A stretch of 47,379 nt of DNA, taken from positions 1-47,379 of the forward strand of contig JAFGLT010000008.1 in NCBI GenBank assembly GCA_016927895.1, written 5' to 3'. Positions within the stretch are counted from its first letter, which is position 1. Every line of letters starts with the position of its first letter. A program made the translations under genes and the position numbers. The notes under the pieces are model-generated. The model saw only the letters and a list, made by a program, of their open reading frames with translations, searched no databases and was not told the origin of the DNA. Source of the stretch: Candidatus Bathyarchaeota archaeon (GTDB lineage: Archaea; Thermoproteota; Bathyarchaeia; Bathyarchaeales; Bathycorpusculaceae). Shown here piece after piece: positions 7,306 to 35,180 of this stretch.

Positions 7306-7839
7306 TCATCTCATGGGCAACGCAGTCATGTCAGTGAATTGATTCATGAACCCTTTGATGTGGCTCACTGGGACGTTGACGTTATCCTTGAACCTGTCTA
7401 ACATGTAAAGTAGCCACTCAGACTGTTCCCCGATGAGCCTCCACACTTCTTCAATGCTTTCGTCCCTAAGCAAAGACACGTCAAACTGTGCCCCGTTACC
7501 ATCGATGGCAACTGATTTAACCCATTCAGGCTCTACTTGTCTCGTTAAAACGCAGTAAATAGGCAGAATATCTACTGGGCTAACGTGTTTTTTAAGTTCA
7601 AACCTTATGTGAAAATACAAGTACTCGTCATCCTCAGACGTTGGAACTCCACTATTCTTATCATGAATCCAAAAACAGTACCAACCAACACTGCCCTTAG
7701 CCTTCAACATAGAAATCGTATACGCAACCTTATCCCGAATCAAACCAATATACCCACCAGAAGACAAATCATCCCACGAAAACCTGATGAAAGTCTCCCA
7801 CAAACGATCCAAATTAGGCTTCTCCATATTTTTCTCCAC
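7306..7839 (-). CDS. Conserved hypothetical soluble protein
   Basis: 177 residues, rich in aromatic residues and acidic on balance. I do not recognise the family. There is no signal peptide or membrane helix. The N-terminal half (LWETFIRFSWDDLSSGGYIG, then VAYTISMLKAKGSVGWYCFW) alternates hydrophobic and polar residues like a beta-rich sensor or ligand-binding fold; the C-terminal half is helical. A second ATG at codon 5 is an alternative start. It stands alone on its strand, behind a good TATA box near 7935. Codon use looks like the neighbours, so it is probably a resident gene. Confidence 0.65.
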   Translation of the reverse strand: MEKNMEKPNLDRLWETFIRFSWDDLSSGGYIGLIRDKVAYTISMLKAKGSVGWYCFWIHDKNSGVPTSEDDEYLYFHIRFELKKHVSPVDILPIYCVLTRQVEPEWVKSVAIDGNGAQFDVSLLRDESIEEVWRLIGEQSEWLLYMLDRFKDNVNVPVSHIKGFMNQFTDMTALPMR

Positions 7840-7934
7840 CTAAACTAACTATACAACTAATCCATTAAACAGCTTTACGCTTCCCACAACCAAAAAACCA
7901 CCCCAAACTCAACGAAAATTAACCCCTAAATTCC

Positions 7935-8048: not shown

Positions 8049-10265
8049 TTATTCTGCTTCGTAGAATTCTTGTGGTTTCGGTGGTGTCTCTGGTAAGCCT
8101 CTGCGTTCACGTATCTGCTTTACGATTTCCGCTTGCATCTGTTCTGGAACTGGTGCCCAACGGCTGAACTGAGTCGCCCAGAAAGCTCTGCCTTGAGTTG
8201 AAGAGCGCAGTTCATCTGCGATACCAAAGGATTCGGAAACTGGCATCTCAGCCTTGACAATTACCATTTCATCTTCGTTTGTCATGTCCAAGATTTTACC
8301 ACGGCGCTTTTGCACTAAAGCTATGACTGGACTGACAAAGTTGTTCGGAACCTTGCATTCAAAGCTTATCAACGGCTCCAAAAGCTTCGGGTCACTCAAA
8401 AGAAAAGCGCACCAAATCGGACGCCAAGTCATAGGCAAAATCTGCGCTGGACCCCTGTGAACAGGGTCTTCGTGAACCGTGATGTCTTCCAAGTTAACTT
8501 TCAAACCGTAAGCAGGCTCCTTCGCCAAAACAGAACTGTGCACCGCTTCGCGGAAACCAGATTTCACATGGTCTAAAACTTCATCAACGTACTGTCGTCC
8601 CTTAATCCTGTTAACCAGAATATTATTCTCTTCAATAGCTATAACACTTCGTGCATCATCAGTCGACCAACCCAACGCTTTAAGATTCTTCTGCCGCTCC
8701 TCCCTAGTCTGCATCTCAGTAATCTTTTCCTCTTTAATTGCCTCAACAACCTCTTCAGGCAACTTCTCCATAGATATCCAAAGCTTACTGTGCTTGTTAG
8801 GACTCTTACCCATTACCGGACGACCATTATAGTCATGACTGATGGTCTCACGGTAAATCACAATGGGCTTGCTGAGCTTCGCCTTCAACCCTGCCTCCTG
8901 CATCCGATAAGCAGTAATCTCAAGGTGAAGTTCACCCATTCCGCTCAACAGGAATTCACCGCTTTCCTTGTTCATCGTAAAATGCAAGTTCGGGTCTTCC
9001 GTAGTCAACTTATGCATAACCTTATCGAACAAAGGAAGATCCTTAACGTCTTCAGGCTCAACTGCCACCGTAACCACTGGGTCAGAAACATACTTCAAAC
9101 CCTCAAACGGATGCGTTTCCACATCTTCTTCAGCAACAGTTTCGCCAACGTGAAGCGACGGCAACCCTGAAATCGCAGCGATATTTCCCGCAGGAACATG
9201 ATCTACGATAACTCTGTCGGTTACCATGCTCATATAAACCTGTTGAACCGTGCCTTTCTGATGACTATTCACAAGCTGCACCATTTTGCCTTTTCTAACC
9301 GAACCACTGAATACGCGACCAATAGCTACTGTGCCAGTATGAGGGTCAACTTCAATCGTTGAAATACACATCAAAAGTGGACCATTAGGGTCTACCTTCG
9401 CCATACCCTTTCCAGTCGCGCTTTCCGCGTCCCCAGGCCAAATTTGGCTCTGCCGATACGGTTGCGCCTGCAAAGGATTAGGAAGCTGCTCACAGAACAT
9501 GTCCAAAATCGGCTCAGGCAAAGGTGCCTTCTTGCTTAAAGCGTCAACCTTTTTCCCAACGTCTTCTGGCGCACCACTGTATGCATCAATGATGTCAGCA
9601 AAAGAAATTCCTTTAGCTTTCATGTGAGGCAAGTTTAGTCCCCACTTGTGAAGAGCTGAGCCAAAAGCTACACGACCATCTTCAACTTTGACTTGCCAAT
9701 CCTTTTTATGCTCTTCTGGCGCGTATTTTTCTATGAGCGTGTTTATTCTTACGATGATTTTCGCGAATTTGCGTTGTACCTCTTCAGGAGTTAACTTAAT
9801 TTCTTTAATGAGCCTGTCAACCTTGTTAATGAACAAAATTGGTTTTACGCGTTCACGAAGCGCTTGCATAAGCACAGTTTCTGTCTGAGTCATAGGTCCT
9901 TCAACCGCGTCGACAACCACAAGAGCGCCGTCTACGGCTCTGAGGCTTCGCGTTACTGCTCCGCTGAAGTCGATGTGGCCTGGAGTATCGATGAGGTTAA
10001 TCAGGTAGTCCCTGTCTTGGAATGTGTGTGCTAAACTGACGTTTGACGCGAAAACGGTCATTTGCCTTTTCTGCTCAAGGTCCCATGAATCAAGGAACAG
10101 TTTCTGCCCTGCTGTTTGGGTGCTGATTATACCCGCTGCAGCTAAGAGGCTGTCTGAAAGGGTAGTTTTTCCGTGGTCAACGTGGGCAATTATGCTGGTG
10201 TTCCTAATGACTTCTGGACTATTCATCAGTTTGACAATTTCGTCAACCTGTTTATATCGTGCCAT
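8049..10265 (-). CDS. fusA: Translation elongation factor 2 (aEF-2)
   Basis: 738-residue GTPase that drives ribosomal translocation. The G domain has P-loop AHVDHGKTT (G1), DTPGH (G3) and NKVD (G4). Switch I reads EQKRQMTV where most EF-G/EF-2 proteins have RGITI, a variation I believe is common among TACK-type archaea. Domain II (GTVAIGRVFSGSVRKGK), domain III (GMGELHLEI) and the domain IV loop follow; the loop VHEDPVHRGPAQ keeps the histidine that is modified to diphthamide. The C-terminal domain V is complete. It is monocistronic, with an A/T-rich promoter region upstream and a T-tract terminator downstream. The length is normal for archaea. Confidence 0.96.
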   Translation of the reverse strand: MARYKQVDEIVKLMNSPEVIRNTSIIAHVDHGKTTLSDSLLAAAGIISTQTAGQKLFLDSWDLEQKRQMTVFASNVSLAHTFQDRDYLINLIDTPGHIDFSGAVTRSLRAVDGALVVVDAVEGPMTQTETVLMQALRERVKPILFINKVDRLIKEIKLTPEEVQRKFAKIIVRINTLIEKYAPEEHKKDWQVKVEDGRVAFGSALHKWGLNLPHMKAKGISFADIIDAYSGAPEDVGKKVDALSKKAPLPEPILDMFCEQLPNPLQAQPYRQSQIWPGDAESATGKGMAKVDPNGPLLMCISTIEVDPHTGTVAIGRVFSGSVRKGKMVQLVNSHQKGTVQQVYMSMVTDRVIVDHVPAGNIAAISGLPSLHVGETVAEEDVETHPFEGLKYVSDPVVTVAVEPEDVKDLPLFDKVMHKLTTEDPNLHFTMNKESGEFLLSGMGELHLEITAYRMQEAGLKAKLSKPIVIYRETISHDYNGRPVMGKSPNKHSKLWISMEKLPEEVVEAIKEEKITEMQTREERQKNLKALGWSTDDARSVIAIEENNILVNRIKGRQYVDEVLDHVKSGFREAVHSSVLAKEPAYGLKVNLEDITVHEDPVHRGPAQILPMTWRPIWCAFLLSDPKLLEPLISFECKVPNNFVSPVIALVQKRRGKILDMTNEDEMVIVKAEMPVSESFGIADELRSSTQGRAFWATQFSRWAPVPEQMQAEIVKQIRERRGLPETPPKPQEFYEAE

Positions 10266-29644: not shown

Positions 29645-32107
29645 TCAGTATTCAATTTGGAAGGAAACATCGTATGGGTTTATTTGTCTGCCGTCGCTTC
29701 GCTTTTCCGTGTGAACTCTAACCTCGGCGATTTTAAGAGTTCCAGCAATGTCTTCTTTGACCGAGTTGATTACGTTCGCGGTTTCTGCATTTACAGAATA
29801 GACATCTAGTATTTTGACGGGCGCGTTAAGCGGCAACTGTTTCTCCGCCTTGTCTTGTCTAACTCCACTCATTATTGCCATGACGAGGTCTCCATTGTTT
29901 TCCACAGCTTCATCTTCTAGCTCGGAGTTATACTTGGGCCAAGGCGAAACCTGCAAGCTCTTGAAGCCCTTGTCTTCAGCAAACATAGACTGGTAAATTT
30001 CCTCCGTTAAATGAGGCGTTATTGGTGACAGCAACTGCAGGACACGATGAAGAACCTTGTAAAGGGTATACTGAGCCGCAACCTTCTTTGCTTGGCCATA
30101 CGAATCAGGGTTATATAACTTATCTTTCACTGCTTCTATGTAATAGTCACAGAATAAGTGCCAAGTGAAATTGCGAATCTCCTCCACAGCAACGTTGAAC
30201 TGGCATTTCTCCATGGCTTCAGTCACCTTCTTCGTTAGCTTTTCTGCCTTGCTTAAAATCCATTTATCCAAAGGCTGAAGCTCAAACTCAACCTTTTTAC
30301 TGGGCTTATAGCCATCTAAGAGGTTAATTGCGAATTTGGATACGTTCCACAATTTAACAAGGAAGCGCCTGCCATACTCTACATCTGGCCACCTGAAGGG
30401 AATATCTGAGCCTGTAGCGCCGCCTCCTGCTGCCCATTGTCGCGTGGCGTCCGAACCGTGCTTGTCTAAAACTTCTGGTGCCGCAACATAGTTCTTTAGC
30501 GACTTGCTCATTTTTCTGCCGTCTGAACCCAACACCATGCCGTTTATGAGGCAACTCTTGTAAGGCGTCTCGCCGAACAACGCCAAGTGCCGAACCATCA
30601 GGTAGTAAGCCCAGGTTCTGATGATGTCTATGCCAGACGGGTGCACATCAGCAGGGAAAAGCCGTTTCCAATCTGGGCGGTCAGGCCAGCCAGCATGCAC
30701 CGCACACGTTATTGAGCTATCCATCCACGTGTCAAAAACGTCACGCTCGGGAATGAAGTCGCGGCCTCCGCATTTAGGGCACTTGTCAACACGCGGGTTT
30801 TCCAGCTTCGGGTCTACAGGAACCCACTCTTCCTCTGCCAAAAGCAATTCTCCACAGCTTTTGCAGTACCACACGGGTATGGGCGTAGCGAACACGCGTT
30901 GGCGGCTGATAACCCAGTCCCAATCAAGAGATTTTGCCCAGTCAACTAAACGCGTTTTCATGTAATCAGGATACCACACGACTTCGTTGGCGGTTTTCTC
31001 TACCTCATCAGTTAACGCACGGGTTTTCATGAACCATTGTTTATGCTCGAGAATTTCAACGTGTGTTTTGCATCGGTCGCAAACGCCGACTTCCTGCGAA
31101 AGCGGCTCAACCTTCTCCAGCAATCCTGCAGCTTCAAGGTCTTCAACAATGGCTTTTCGGGCTTGGTTTATCGTTAACCCAGCGTATTTTCCGCCGTTCT
31201 CGTTAATTCTGCCGTTGTCCGTTAGAAGCCTGATAACAGGAAGCTTGTGTTTCATAACTGTCTTCACGTCTTCCTTGTCGCCGTACGTGCAAATCATAAC
31301 CACGCCAGTGCCAAAAGATGGGTCAACAGCCTCTTCCGCAATTATTTTTACAGTGCGGTTAACAACGGGCACTACAATGTTCTTGCCGATGTACTTGTTG
31401 AAGCGTTCATCCTCAGGGTTCACTTCAACCGCCACGCACGCAGGAATAAACTCGGGTCGGGATGTGGCAATCAACAAGTGCTCAGTTGTGCCTTCCAGCG
31501 GAAAACGGATGTAATTAAGTGAGCCTTGCCGCTTTTCGTAGTCCACCTCAGCGTCTGCAATAGCTGTCTCGCAGCGTGGACACCAGTTCACGGGGTGCGT
31601 TCCCTGATACATGAAACCCTTTTCATGTAGAAGTATGAAGCTGAGTTGCGTGCGTCTCCAGTAGTCAGGGTCCATGGTGCGGTACTCTGTTGTCCAGTCT
31701 ATGCTGCAGCCCAGTTTTAAGATGGAGGCTTTCATCAGGGCGATGTATTTTTCGATAAGTTGTTCGCACCACTTGCGGAACTGGTCAGGCGGCACATCAC
31801 GCTTTCGGATTTTCTGCTCTTTTTCCACCTGTATTTCTATGCTTAGCCCGTGGCAGTCCCATCCCTGCGGGAAAAGCACGTTGAAACCGCGCATACGCTT
31901 GTACCGAGCTAAGATATCAAAGTAGGTCCAGTTCAGAATGTTGCCCATGTGAAAATTGCCAGACGGATACGGCGGCGGAGTATCAACCGTGAAAGCGGGT
32001 CGCGTCGTGTCGTTCCAGTCGAAATGGTATATTCCAAGCTCTTCCCACTTCTGCTGCCACTTCCGCTCGATTTCATCGAATTTATATTTTTTTGGCAGAG
32101 GCTGCAT
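29645..32107 (-). CDS. valS: Valyl-tRNA synthetase
   Basis: 820-residue class I synthetase. The HIGH motif is HMGN in PPYPSGNFHMGN, and KMSKS is intact in GRKMSKSLKN. The editing (CP1) domain includes TTEHLLIATSRPEFIPACVA and SFGTGVVMICTYGD; zinc-type cysteines appear in NWCPRCETAIAD, GVCDRCKTH and YCKSCGELL. The anticodon-binding region (WHLFCDYYIEAVKDKLY) is that of ValRS. The length is typical of archaeal enzymes without the C-terminal coiled coil. Divergent from the TPP-riboswitch operon. Confidence 0.94.
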   Translation of the reverse strand: MQPLPKKYKFDEIERKWQQKWEELGIYHFDWNDTTRPAFTVDTPPPYPSGNFHMGNILNWTYFDILARYKRMRGFNVLFPQGWDCHGLSIEIQVEKEQKIRKRDVPPDQFRKWCEQLIEKYIALMKASILKLGCSIDWTTEYRTMDPDYWRRTQLSFILLHEKGFMYQGTHPVNWCPRCETAIADAEVDYEKRQGSLNYIRFPLEGTTEHLLIATSRPEFIPACVAVEVNPEDERFNKYIGKNIVVPVVNRTVKIIAEEAVDPSFGTGVVMICTYGDKEDVKTVMKHKLPVIRLLTDNGRINENGGKYAGLTINQARKAIVEDLEAAGLLEKVEPLSQEVGVCDRCKTHVEILEHKQWFMKTRALTDEVEKTANEVVWYPDYMKTRLVDWAKSLDWDWVISRQRVFATPIPVWYCKSCGELLLAEEEWVPVDPKLENPRVDKCPKCGGRDFIPERDVFDTWMDSSITCAVHAGWPDRPDWKRLFPADVHPSGIDIIRTWAYYLMVRHLALFGETPYKSCLINGMVLGSDGRKMSKSLKNYVAAPEVLDKHGSDATRQWAAGGGATGSDIPFRWPDVEYGRRFLVKLWNVSKFAINLLDGYKPSKKVEFELQPLDKWILSKAEKLTKKVTEAMEKCQFNVAVEEIRNFTWHLFCDYYIEAVKDKLYNPDSYGQAKKVAAQYTLYKVLHRVLQLLSPITPHLTEEIYQSMFAEDKGFKSLQVSPWPKYNSELEDEAVENNGDLVMAIMSGVRQDKAEKQLPLNAPVKILDVYSVNAETANVINSVKEDIAGTLKIAEVRVHTEKRSDGRQINPYDVSFQIEY

Positions 32108-32180
32108 TCCTCAACGTTCTCCGTTACAGTATAGGCTTTAGGAAAATTAAAATACCACTAAATAACATTATCCCCTTCAA

Positions 32181-32274
32181 GGTTTGGGGAGCTGAGATTT
32201 TCACTCGGCTGAGAGGACGGCTGAATCGCTGTCGACCCTTAGAACCTGAACCAGATAATACTGGCGGAGGGAAA
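32181..32274 (+). promoter_or_regulatory. TPP (THI-box) riboswitch
   Basis: The conserved THI elements occur in order: GGGGAGC (from 32186), the pyrimidine-sensor loop GCTGAGA (32208-32214), the P3 stem GGACGGC..GCTGTC, ACCCTT, and the pyrophosphate-sensor half AACCTGAACCAG, ATAATACTGGCGGAGGGA. The ribosome binding sequence GGAGG (32266-32270) lies inside the conserved 3' strand, seven bases before the GTG of the next gene. Ligand binding would therefore hide the site and block translation of the S-component-like gene and its coupled followers. Confidence 0.92.
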
Positions 32275-32277
32275 AAA

Positions 32278-32808
32278 GTGAACAACCAGATAAATGAAAC
32301 TACTTCTCGAAGTAAAATAGTAGCTTTAACGTCGATTATGGCGGCTTTAATCGCGGTAACAACAATGATTGCCATACCAATGCCGCCTCCACTTTCCAGC
32401 ATAACCTTAGCGCCAATAGCCATATTCATAACAAGCATTCTTCTGGGGCCATCAGCTGGACTAATTTCAGCCGCCATCGGTTCCGCCATAGGGTTCCTTG
32501 CGGGAACAAGCATAGGAACAATAATGGCGCCCCCAGCGTATCTTTACCTGTTCTTATTCGGGATAGTTATTGCAAGAGCGCCAATGGGTTTACTGGTAGG
32601 ACTCCTCAGAAAGAAAAAAGAGACAGCAGCAATGATTGTTGGCGTATTAACTGAAACCATAATCTTCTTTGGGATAGACTCATTCGTATTTGGAGTAGCT
32701 TTCGCGCTGATAACTCTGGGAACGCTCGCAGACCTCATATTTGTACCAATAAGCTACGGCATCCTCAAAGCCGTAAGAAAAATTCTAAAAATTAGTTATT
32801 TGGCATGA
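32278..32808 (+). CDS. ECF-transporter S-component-like membrane protein, presumed thiamine/precursor uptake
   Basis: 176 residues from the GTG at 32278; a longer upstream frame would run through the riboswitch and is rejected. Five or six hydrophobic helices: SIMAALIAVTTMIAIPMP; ITLAPIAIFITSILLGPSAG; ISAAIGSAIGFLAG; AYLYLFLFGIVIARAPMG; MIVGVLTETIIFFG; and a C-terminal one. The size, early small-residue pattern and GPxxG motif fit substrate-capture (S) subunits of energy-coupling-factor transporters (ThiT/ThiW/HmpT group). The substrate is inferred from the TPP riboswitch. The energising EcfA/T genes are not here. Its TGA overlaps the next ATG (ATGA). Confidence 0.75.
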   Translation: MNNQINETTSRSKIVALTSIMAALIAVTTMIAIPMPPPLSSITLAPIAIFITSILLGPSAGLISAAIGSAIGFLAGTSIGTIMAPPAYLYLFLFGIVIARAPMGLLVGLLRKKKETAAMIVGVLTETIIFFGIDSFVFGVAFALITLGTLADLIFVPISYGILKAVRKILKISYLA

Positions 32809-33491
32809 TCGAAATGCAGAAAGAAGCATGGTACTTCCAAGAAGACACAGTTAAGAATTACGAGCACTTCTATCAAACCAAATACAAAAAAGCAGACAAA
32901 CTAGAGAAAAAGCTGCTGAAAAAAATGTTAGACACAATGGGCCACAGTGAGAAGCTGCTTGAAATAGGCTGCGGCACAGGCCACTTCACAAGATGGCTAA
33001 ACTCCATGGGACTAGAGTGCTACGGGCTTGACCTGTCACATCTCATGTTAAAAGAAGCAAAGAAACATTGGCCAACCGGGTCGTTACTGCAAAGTGAATC
33101 AAGCCACTTGCCCTTCAAGGACAAAACCTTCGATGTTGTAGTGTTCGTAACCTGCTTAGAGTACATGCCTAACATCATAAAAGTAGTTAATGAAGCCGCC
33201 AGAGTGTCCCGAAAAGGAATAATCATCGGACTAATGAACAAATGGAGCGTACCCACAATGCGAAGAATCATCCAAATCAAAAGAGGAAAAAACCCCTACT
33301 ACAGCAACGTCAGGTTCTACTCAATCTTCGACATGAAACACGTGTTAAAAGAGGCGCTTCACGACAACTACGTTATCGGTTTCTGGAGCACAACAGCCTT
33401 TCCAAAAATTTTCGGCGACACAGAATCCAAGCTTTTACCGTTTGGCGCTTTCCTCGGAGTAGCCGTAAAACTAGGTGAAAAAGTTGATTGA
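32805..33491 (+). CDS. SAM-dependent methyltransferase in the thiamine operon
   Basis: 228 residues. Class I Rossmann methyltransferase with SAM-binding motif I LLEIGCGTGHFTRWL near residue 46, an acidic motif in CYGLDLSHLML, and motif IV-like DVVVFVTCLEYMP near 108. It is the UbiE/Methyltransf_11 type, with no substrate-specific domain. Its ATG overlaps the stop of the S-component-like gene, and its end overlaps the next gene by 17 bases, so it is translationally coupled to a TPP-controlled gene. A methyltransferase is not part of the standard thiamine pathway; the substrate is unknown. Confidence 0.85.
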   Translation: MIEMQKEAWYFQEDTVKNYEHFYQTKYKKADKLEKKLLKKMLDTMGHSEKLLEIGCGTGHFTRWLNSMGLECYGLDLSHLMLKEAKKHWPTGSLLQSESSHLPFKDKTFDVVVFVTCLEYMPNIIKVVNEAARVSRKGIIIGLMNKWSVPTMRRIIQIKRGKNPYYSNVRFYSIFDMKHVLKEALHDNYVIGFWSTTAFPKIFGDTESKLLPFGAFLGVAVKLGEKVD

Positions 33492-34545
33492 CAAACCAGT
33501 AATTGGAAAATTTCCATTAGACATAATTGAAAAAATAGTCTACTCAAAGTTAGGAGCACCCAAGTCAGAAATACTCGTGGGACCAGGTCACGGTTGCGAT
33601 AATGCAGTTATCAGATTAGGAAATAACCAAGTTTTAGTTGCCACGGCAGACCCGCTGTCGATGATTCCTGCCCTAGGAATACGGGACTCCGCTTGGCTCT
33701 CCGTTAATTTGCTAGCTTCAGATTTAGCTACATGCGGTTTTCCACCCCAATTCATCATGGTGAACCTAAGCCTTCCCCCTAGCATGAGTGATGGCGAGTT
33801 TGAGGAGTATTGGGGTGCGTTTCATGAGGCATGCGAAAAGCTGGGTGTTGCTATCTTGGGGGGTCATACGGGAAGGTATGTTGGATGTGATTACACGATT
33901 ATAGGTGGAGGAGTTATGATGGCTATAGCCCCAAAGAACCAATACTTGTCGAGCAAGATGAGTAAGCCTGGAGACTTGCTAATTATGACGAAGGGAGTAG
34001 CAATAGCGGCTACTGGAATACTTTCCCGGGTTTTCCCAGAAACTATAGAGAAAGCGTACGGATTAGCTTTCCTTAAGAGGGCTCAATCATATTTCAGTCG
34101 ATTCAGTGTGGTTGAAGACGCGTTAACTGTGGCTTCCACAGGCTTAAGGGATGGAGGAGTCACATCTATGCATGACGTTACAGAAGGCGGCTTGCTGGGA
34201 GCAATTTATGAGCTGTCCGAAGCCTCTGGAAACGGCTTAGAAATTGAGCTTTCAGACGTTATAGTTACTGAGGAGGCAAAACGTGTTTGTGACCTCTTCG
34301 AGATAGATCCATATTCAACGTTGAGTGAAGGAACTCTGATTATCAGCGTGAAGCCTGAAAAAGCCGAAAAAGTGCTTCAGGCGTTAAAATCCAAGGGAAT
34401 GAGGAGCGCGGTAATCGGGAAAGTCACAGATCTGCACGAGGGCAGATGGGTTAAAAGAAGTGGAATTCGAGAAGCGTTGGAAAAGCCATCTGTTGATCCA
34501 TACTGGGAAGCTTATTGGAAAGCGCAGCAGAAGGGATGGAAGTGA
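33475..34545 (+). CDS. AIR-synthase-related kinase, ThiL/HypE-like
   Basis: 356 residues, GTG start inside the methyltransferase 3' end. PurM/HypE/ThiL fold: GPGHGCDNAVI (phosphate and Mg region), LVATADPLSMIPALGIRDSA, ASDLATCGFPPQFI, LGGHTGRYVGCDYTIIGGG in the N-terminal half, and HDVTEGGLLGAIYELSEASG plus STLSEGTLIISVKPEKAEKV in the C-terminal half. HypE's terminal Cys tail is missing. It lies between a TPP riboswitch and thiE, so thiamine-phosphate kinase activity (ThiL role) is the natural guess, but the motifs diverge from classical ThiL. Confidence 0.75.
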   Translation: MKKLIDKPVIGKFPLDIIEKIVYSKLGAPKSEILVGPGHGCDNAVIRLGNNQVLVATADPLSMIPALGIRDSAWLSVNLLASDLATCGFPPQFIMVNLSLPPSMSDGEFEEYWGAFHEACEKLGVAILGGHTGRYVGCDYTIIGGGVMMAIAPKNQYLSSKMSKPGDLLIMTKGVAIAATGILSRVFPETIEKAYGLAFLKRAQSYFSRFSVVEDALTVASTGLRDGGVTSMHDVTEGGLLGAIYELSEASGNGLEIELSDVIVTEEAKRVCDLFEIDPYSTLSEGTLIISVKPEKAEKVLQALKSKGMRSAVIGKVTDLHEGRWVKRSGIREALEKPSVDPYWEAYWKAQQKGWK

Positions 34546-35180
34546 CCCGGCGGCTAGAAGGTTTGTATCTTGTTGTTTCCCCAGTTATGCCTTTTGATGA
34601 ATTGCTTGTCGCTGTTGAGAAAGCTTTGGAGGGAGGCGTTGACTTGTTACAGCTTATTCCCGGCGAAGAGAGTTCCGAAACATTGAGGTTGGCTGAGGAT
34701 TTGGCGAATCTTACAGAGCAATATGACTTGCCTTTTCTTGTTAACGGCAGTTTGCAGTTAGCCAAGAAAGTCGGTGCAGAAGGATTACATTTAGATAGCT
34801 ACGATGTAACTCCAAGCGATATTAAACGAGCGCTTGGCGACCCTTGTATAGTAGGTTATACCGTAGGATGTCAGCTTGAGAAGTTGAGGTGGGCTGAAAC
34901 TGTTGGAGCCGATTACGTGTCTTTCTGCTCTGTTTTTCCAACGTCTTCTGCGGCTCAATGCGAGATAGTACCCATTGAGACCATAAAAGCGGCAAAACGT
35001 CAAACTGCTCTGCCAATATTCGCTGCGGGTGGCATAAACCTTAACAACGCTGGACTTGTCCTCAAAGCAGGCGTCAATGGAATCGCTGTCACCTCAGCGG
35101 TGATAGAAGCTGAAGACCCGAAGCAAACAGCAGTAAAATTCAAAGAGATTATCCGCAGAGCGCGAAAAGCAAAGCGGTGA
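34536..35180 (+). CDS. thiE: Thiamine-phosphate synthase
   Basis: About 214 residues. TIM-barrel ThiE that joins HMP-diphosphate and hydroxyethylthiazole phosphate. Motifs: LYLVVSPVMPFDELLVAVEK; GGVDLLQL; DLPFLVNGSLQLAKKVGAEG followed by LHL; GYTVGCQLEKLRWAETVGAD; YVSFCSVFPTSSA; and FAAGGINLNNAGLVLKAGVN followed by GIAVTSAV. The phosphate-binding loops are intact. The ATG at 34536 behind AGAAGGG is preferred; an earlier ATG at 34515 would add seven residues. It overlaps the kinase-like gene, the last member of the riboswitch-led operon. Confidence 0.88.
   Translation: MEVTRRLEGLYLVVSPVMPFDELLVAVEKALEGGVDLLQLIPGEESSETLRLAEDLANLTEQYDLPFLVNGSLQLAKKVGAEGLHLDSYDVTPSDIKRALGDPCIVGYTVGCQLEKLRWAETVGADYVSFCSVFPTSSAAQCEIVPIETIKAAKRQTALPIFAAGGINLNNAGLVLKAGVNGIAVTSAVIEAEDPKQTAVKFKEIIRRARKAKR

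Follow-up and report, generated by a model that had tools for sequence, protein, structure and literature searches.

A TPP riboswitch-led operon in a Bathyarchaeota genome places a methyltransferase, an AIR-synthase-superfamily protein and a ThiE-like protein in a proposed route of thiamine salvage

Analysis of a 47,379-nucleotide stretch of a Candidatus Bathyarchaeota archaeon genome (contig JAFGLT010000008.1 of assembly GCA_016927895.1; hereafter the window) revealed a thiamine pyrophosphate (TPP) riboswitch followed by four overlapping genes, encoding an S-component-like membrane protein (S), a methyltransferase (MT), an AIR-synthase-superfamily protein (K) and a ThiE-like protein (E). We propose, with a probability of about one half, that these genes form a TPP-repressed thiamine-salvage operon in an archaeon without de novo thiamine synthesis. 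As the sequence-only reading that preceded this work had said of MT, and as is also the case for K and E, these proteins have no place in the vitamin B1 routes known so far; the MT-K-E trio recurs in unrelated bacteria. Six genomes, three archaeal and three from the bacterial group Kryptonia, encode the ThiE-like enzyme without a detected supply of hydroxymethylpyrimidine pyrophosphate (HMP-PP), neither ThiC nor ThiD having been found in them, and in all six MT adjoins E, which points to an undescribed salvage step for this vitamin. In addition, where archaea import thiamine by ThiT but have only ThiL, the kinase family of K and its relative K' may provide the phosphorylation of thiamine that is otherwise missing.

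The riboswitch and the operon that follows it

The operon comprises the following features, the transporter component being of the energy-coupling factor (ECF) type and the methyltransferase dependent on S-adenosylmethionine (SAM).

32175..32289, + strand: TPP riboswitch aptamer (THI element), RF00059, 59.7 bits, model positions 1-105 of 105
32266..32280, + strand: ribosome-binding site GGAGGGA (32266-32272) and GTG start codon of S (32278-32280), from the sequence and the cmscan alignment
32278..32808, + strand: S, ECF transporter S-component-like membrane protein, PF07155, 40 bits, cut-off 26.7
32805..33491, + strand: MT, class I SAM-dependent methyltransferase, Methyltransf_11, 74.7 bits, cut-off 21.2
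33475..34545, + strand: K, AIR-synthase-superfamily protein predicted to phosphorylate thiamine or its thiazole moiety, PF02769 and PF00586
34536..35180, + strand: E, ThiE-like barrel without the canonical HMP-PP site, PF02581, 142.6 bits, and residue table

The full-length RF00059 match exceeded the gathering score of 54.3 (E 2.6e-9, cmscan) and was the sole TPP riboswitch found in a scan of the assembly; in a shuffling test, 199 of 200 shuffles folded worse than the riboswitch strand. Because GGAGGGA includes the conserved AGGG of the 3′ strand of aptamer P4 and lies 5-6 nt ahead of the GTG codon of S, the ribosome-binding site falls within the folded aptamer. A start codon lay 3-10 nt past the conserved AGGG at 15 of the 27 riboswitch loci of the class, counting only starts that open a frame of 100 codons or more. 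All consecutive gene pairs in S-MT-K-E overlap, stop to start. In these respects the sequence-only reading held up, having recognised the TPP riboswitch and named the RF00059 model as its check, placed the ribosome-binding site in the 3′ strand of the aptamer and described four genes with overlapping ends. Its view that a TPP riboswitch is rare in such genomes did not survive: since RF00059 is present in 130 of 201 genomes of the class, the riboswitch is an ordinary feature there. A 2007 survey listed archaeal TPP riboswitches from euryarchaea only, as then known (PMC2258182), and our literature search returned no paper linking "TPP riboswitch" with "Bathyarchaeota".

The first gene product, S, passed the ECF riboflavin S-component model and had no match at E 0.1 to the models of ThiT (TIGR02357) and ThiW (TIGR02359).

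Profile searches for other thiamine genes placed a canonical ThiL, at 253 bits (cut-off 184), on a different contig of the genome. Within the same genome, ThiC gave no match; Thi4 gave background only (about 28 bits, compared with 257-281 for the true Thi4 of genomes G006 and G141); ThiD reached 27 bits in a 537-aa frame, compared with 308-328 in true cases; and ThiM was not found, PF02110 giving 36 bits in that same frame, which we read from its length as NAD(P)H-hydrate dehydratase. These four absences agree across this genome (93% complete) and two others, G029 (99%) and G174 (96%, one contig), and they suggest that the organism can synthesise neither moiety of thiamine. ThiM was likewise not found in the K-bearing genomes described below, including that of the bacterium Melioribacter.

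The ThiE-like, kinase-like and methyltransferase proteins

E exceeded the TMP-TENI (PF02581) cut-off of 27 bits by a wide margin and fell narrowly under that of the NCBIfam ThiE model TIGR00693 (142.8 against 145.1 bits). Its AlphaFold model (predicted local distance difference test score, pLDDT, 91.8) found Bacillus subtilis ThiE, 2tps, as the best Foldseek match, with a TM score of 0.87. To describe its active site we aligned six E-clade sequences with ten canonical ThiE sequences, eight from plasmid records together with those of Melioribacter and B. subtilis, a mis-framed Halarchaeum row having been dropped. R59, K61, D93, G109, D112, G151 and K159 are each kept in 9-10 of the ten canonical rows. 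None of R59, K61, D93, G109, G151 and K159 occurs in any of the six E-clade rows, and D112 survives among them in the window protein only, which reads I, G, G, D and A at R59, K61, D93, D112 and K159. From B. subtilis ThiE structures we take these last five positions to be the site for the pyrophosphate of HMP-PP and Mg. The E clade keeps Q57, G188 and S209, and has as new invariants an aspartate at position 109 and a cysteine at 151; the retained residues, G188 and S209 among them, presumably include the thiazole-phosphate side, again judging from the B. subtilis structures. The loss of the HMP-PP-site residues agrees with ThiD being absent, and HMP-PP is probably not a substrate of E. The thiazole tautomerase TenI was considered as an identity for E and set aside: the catalytic histidine of TenI presumably corresponds to H132 of B. 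subtilis ThiE, where E-clade proteins have G or N.

MT follows E in its distribution, and both are linked to thiamine: in a ThiE search of 46 genomes, true matches occurred only in the six genomes with MT-K-E and in Melioribacter, so that all six ThiE-bearing genomes without ThiC carry the trio. MT retains motif I intact, with E53, G55, C56 and G57 invariant in an alignment of seven orthologues. Its best scores against curated families were far under the respective cut-offs, and its structure model was of low confidence (pLDDT 68.4) and matched many unrelated methyltransferases, giving no clue to its function. Orthologues (E < 1e-20) occur in 5 of the 201 genomes of the class and, at 1e-15, plasmid records yielded none. 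The order S-MT-K-E is found in G000, G029 and G174; in G176, S-MT has a riboswitch of its own, and after it comes another riboswitch, with ThiT-K′. The G153 orthologue (L082:7808-8491) has no thiamine genes nearby and lies about 460 nt from a tRNA gene. Three Kryptonia genomes share the MT-K-E order but lack S; at the gathering score, no TPP riboswitch lay ahead of MT in these three loci, nor did one at E 1 in the single locus searched at that level. In Kryptonia the trio is followed by a protein that by eye resembles cobalamin- or metal-chelate-binding proteins and has no obvious signal peptide (L032:7765-8598, and the same place in L033 and L034).

K carries both domains of its superfamily, AIRS (PF00586, 52.3 bits, cut-off 24) and AIRS_C (PF02769, 87 bits, cut-off 23.1), and scored 87.9 bits against HypE (cut-off 251.6) and 79.4 bits against ThiL (cut-off 184.15), far under both. 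It ends in KGWK, without the C-terminal cysteine of HypE, which we take to be a functional feature of that protein. In a tree, archaeal K and the Kryptonia and Melioribacter proteins formed one clade with support of 100/99, far from ThiL and separated from it by a long, fully supported branch. Judged by this phylogeny and by the profile scores, K is not ThiL and represents a family of its own, whose members sit in archaeal and bacterial thiamine operons. About 20 of the 201 genomes of the class have an orthologue (40-67% identity); the plasmid matches listed were all AIR-synthase paralogues with about 31% identity.

Among the 18 archaeal K-bearing genomes whose context we examined, 14 had a TPP riboswitch over the cut-off just upstream of the K locus, a count that was cross-checked in part; G082 and G067 had a sub-threshold riboswitch (36-41 bits), and G109, in which the contig starts at S, and G118 had none upstream. 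ThiL was over its cut-off in 15 of the 18, as well as in the three Kryptonia genomes. In the f24 genomes the arrangement is riboswitch-S-K, without ThiE or ThiC, and in this setting K is best interpreted as a thiamine kinase that fills the gap ahead of ThiL; relatives show riboswitch-ThiT-K′. Melioribacter has a TPP riboswitch, thiC, K, thiD and thiE in succession (L035:4506-8515), with a second thiE elsewhere. Two roles tried for K fared poorly: that it replaces ThiL in the window's genome is ruled out by the canonical ThiL, and that it is a plain substitute for ThiM is weakened by the K-bearing genomes without ThiE.

These results sharpen what had been said of the three proteins from the window alone. 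The coupling of MT to thiamine was supported by three archaeal genomes in which it accompanies S, K and E, and the gene-order test that had been suggested for it turned up S-MT under a TPP riboswitch in a fourth genome as well as the Kryptonia trio. The earlier idea that MT may act on a precursor, a thiamine breakdown product or a competing analogue agrees with these findings. For K, the coupling to thiamine is upheld by the thiamine-operon clade and the upstream riboswitches. The label "ThiL-like" proved too specific, given that K scored higher against HypE than against ThiL and far under the cut-off of each, and a thiamine-phosphate kinase role here is disfavoured by the canonical ThiL. The assignment of E as ThiE was right about the fold; E is no ordinary ThiE, having lost the HMP-PP-site residues in a genome where neither ThiC nor ThiD was found.

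A proposed salvage route and its competitors

In the route that we propose, scarcity of TPP would leave the P4-embedded ribosome-binding site free, allowing the four overlapping genes to be translated together, and binding of TPP would close P4 over it. S would import thiamine or a thiamine-related compound. K would then phosphorylate this substrate on its hydroxyethyl side chain; most likely the substrate is thiamine and the product thiamine phosphate, a step suggested by genomes in which the only detected thiamine genes are a riboswitch, an importer, K or K′, and ThiL. The canonical ThiL encoded elsewhere would complete TPP. E, lacking the HMP-PP site and retaining the expected thiazole-phosphate residues, would act with MT on a second congener to yield a usable product. 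One specific version of this last step, which we regard as a long shot, is a salvage free of HMP-PP in which MT would methylate a thiol or amine of a pyrimidine breakdown product into a leaving group, E would join that product to thiazole phosphate made by K, and ThiL would finish TPP.

Several observations weigh against the proposed route. The Kryptonia trio stands without S and without a detected riboswitch, and S itself has no thiamine-specific match among the curated models. The motif scan for thiamine pyrophosphokinase, which found nothing, spanned only approximately 80% of the window's genome, so K need not be the sole phosphorylating enzyme. In Melioribacter, K could be a thiamine-phosphate kinase, a role better suited to that genome because riboswitch-thiC-K-thiD-thiE occurs there without a ThiL over the cut-off (in an assembly of unknown completeness).

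That last observation, together with membership of K in the same superfamily as ThiL and the capacity of Melioribacter to make the pyrimidine, is what would be expected if K were a second thiamine-phosphate kinase and the operon simply boosted TPP synthesis when TPP is low. We consider this unlikely because most K-bearing archaeal genomes and all three Kryptonia genomes already have a canonical ThiL, from which K is set apart in the tree by its long branch. A doubtful alternative, with some chance of being correct, is that K replaces the hydroxyethylthiazole kinase ThiM, such that S imports thiazole, K makes thiazole phosphate, E makes thiamine phosphate with HMP-PP from an unrecognised kinase, and MT is accessory. 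The absence of ThiM from K-bearing genomes, the retention of G188 and S209 in E and the placement of K between thiC and thiD-thiE in Melioribacter, where ThiM was not found, are consistent with such a substitution; however, the HMP-PP side of E has lost R59, K61, D93 and K159, ThiD was not found, and in the f24 genomes, which carry K, there is no ThiE that could consume thiazole phosphate.

With respect to MT, the size of its family, which is very large and acts on many substrates, and the G153 orthologue away from thiamine genes raise the possibility that it is a passenger gene with no role in thiamine metabolism. This we regard as decidedly unlikely, since seven of the eight MT orthologues examined adjoin S and/or K-E and the order MT-K-E is common to archaea and Kryptonia. 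Finally, a methyltransferase beside a ThiE-like enzyme recalls the bacimethrin pathway, which makes a thiamine antivitamin and in which a SAM methyltransferase acts on a thiamine-pyrimidine analogue. By analogy the operon might make a modified thiamine, as an antivitamin or altered cofactor, instead of salvaging TPP, but regulation through a TPP riboswitch, a ThiL in the genome and the failure to find de novo genes point to TPP supply, and we judge this account very improbable.

Locus context and comparison with known systems

The operon is flanked by two genes on the opposite strand.

29645..32107, - strand: class I (valyl-type) aminoacyl-tRNA synthetase, divergent neighbour, PF00133, 333 bits
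35235..36113, - strand: RimK-like ATP-grasp protein, convergent neighbour, PF08443, 113.5 bits

A homologue of the same synthetase is divergent from the riboswitch in the window and at 13 other riboswitch loci, and a rimK homologue lies directly 3′ of the operon in the window, G174, G176 and G102; these neighbours mark one conserved locus. Because the flanks are conserved and the genes between them differ, thiamine cassettes (S-MT-K-E, S-MT plus ThiT-K′, and ThiT-K′) appear to swap at one regulated locus.

Genes after the riboswitches of the class vary more widely, including ThiT-like, ThiW, ThiC, ThiD and permease-like proteins, with ThiT confirmed by TIGR02357 in three loci and ThiW confirmed in one. 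At L009:1582-3113 the genes after the riboswitch encode ThiT, a KaiC-like ATPase (about 237 aa) and K′, an arrangement also seen in L003, L012, L015, L019, L025, L026 and L029; the presence of a KaiC-like ATPase within a thiamine operon is unexplained. At L002:1611-2779 the riboswitch precedes ThiW (TIGR02359, 134 bits, cut-off 84) and a P-loop-like protein, and L006, L008, L016 and L018 have ThiW or a similar protein with such a P-loop-like protein, which is about 200 aa long and carries a GEIGSGKT-type motif. Paired TPP riboswitches 1.3-2.4 kb apart, each heading its own short operon, occur at L081:6373-6483 and 7733-7847 and at G020:C26:6091-6202 and 8438-8549.

Compared with other RF00059 TPP riboswitches, the one described here shares a full-length match over the gathering score and thiamine genes downstream; it differs in that the aptamer itself contains the ribosome-binding site, and is otherwise not unusual. 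E has the fold and PF02581 domain of ThiE (TIGR00693) and TenI, but lies just under the ThiE cut-off, with its pyrophosphate/Mg-site residues lost and an invariant D and C gained. K shares superfamily and domain order with ThiL (TIGR01379) and HypE (TIGR02124), but falls far under both cut-offs, forms a clade of its own and coexists with a separate canonical ThiL. The likeness of MT to the bacimethrin methyltransferase is one of concept only. The nearest parallel in gene order is with TPP-regulated uptake operons of ThiT, a thiamine importer: in relatives of the window's operon the riboswitch leads genes for an S component and for a kinase-like protein of the AIR-synthase type, whereas in the window S is not ThiT, and MT and E are additional.

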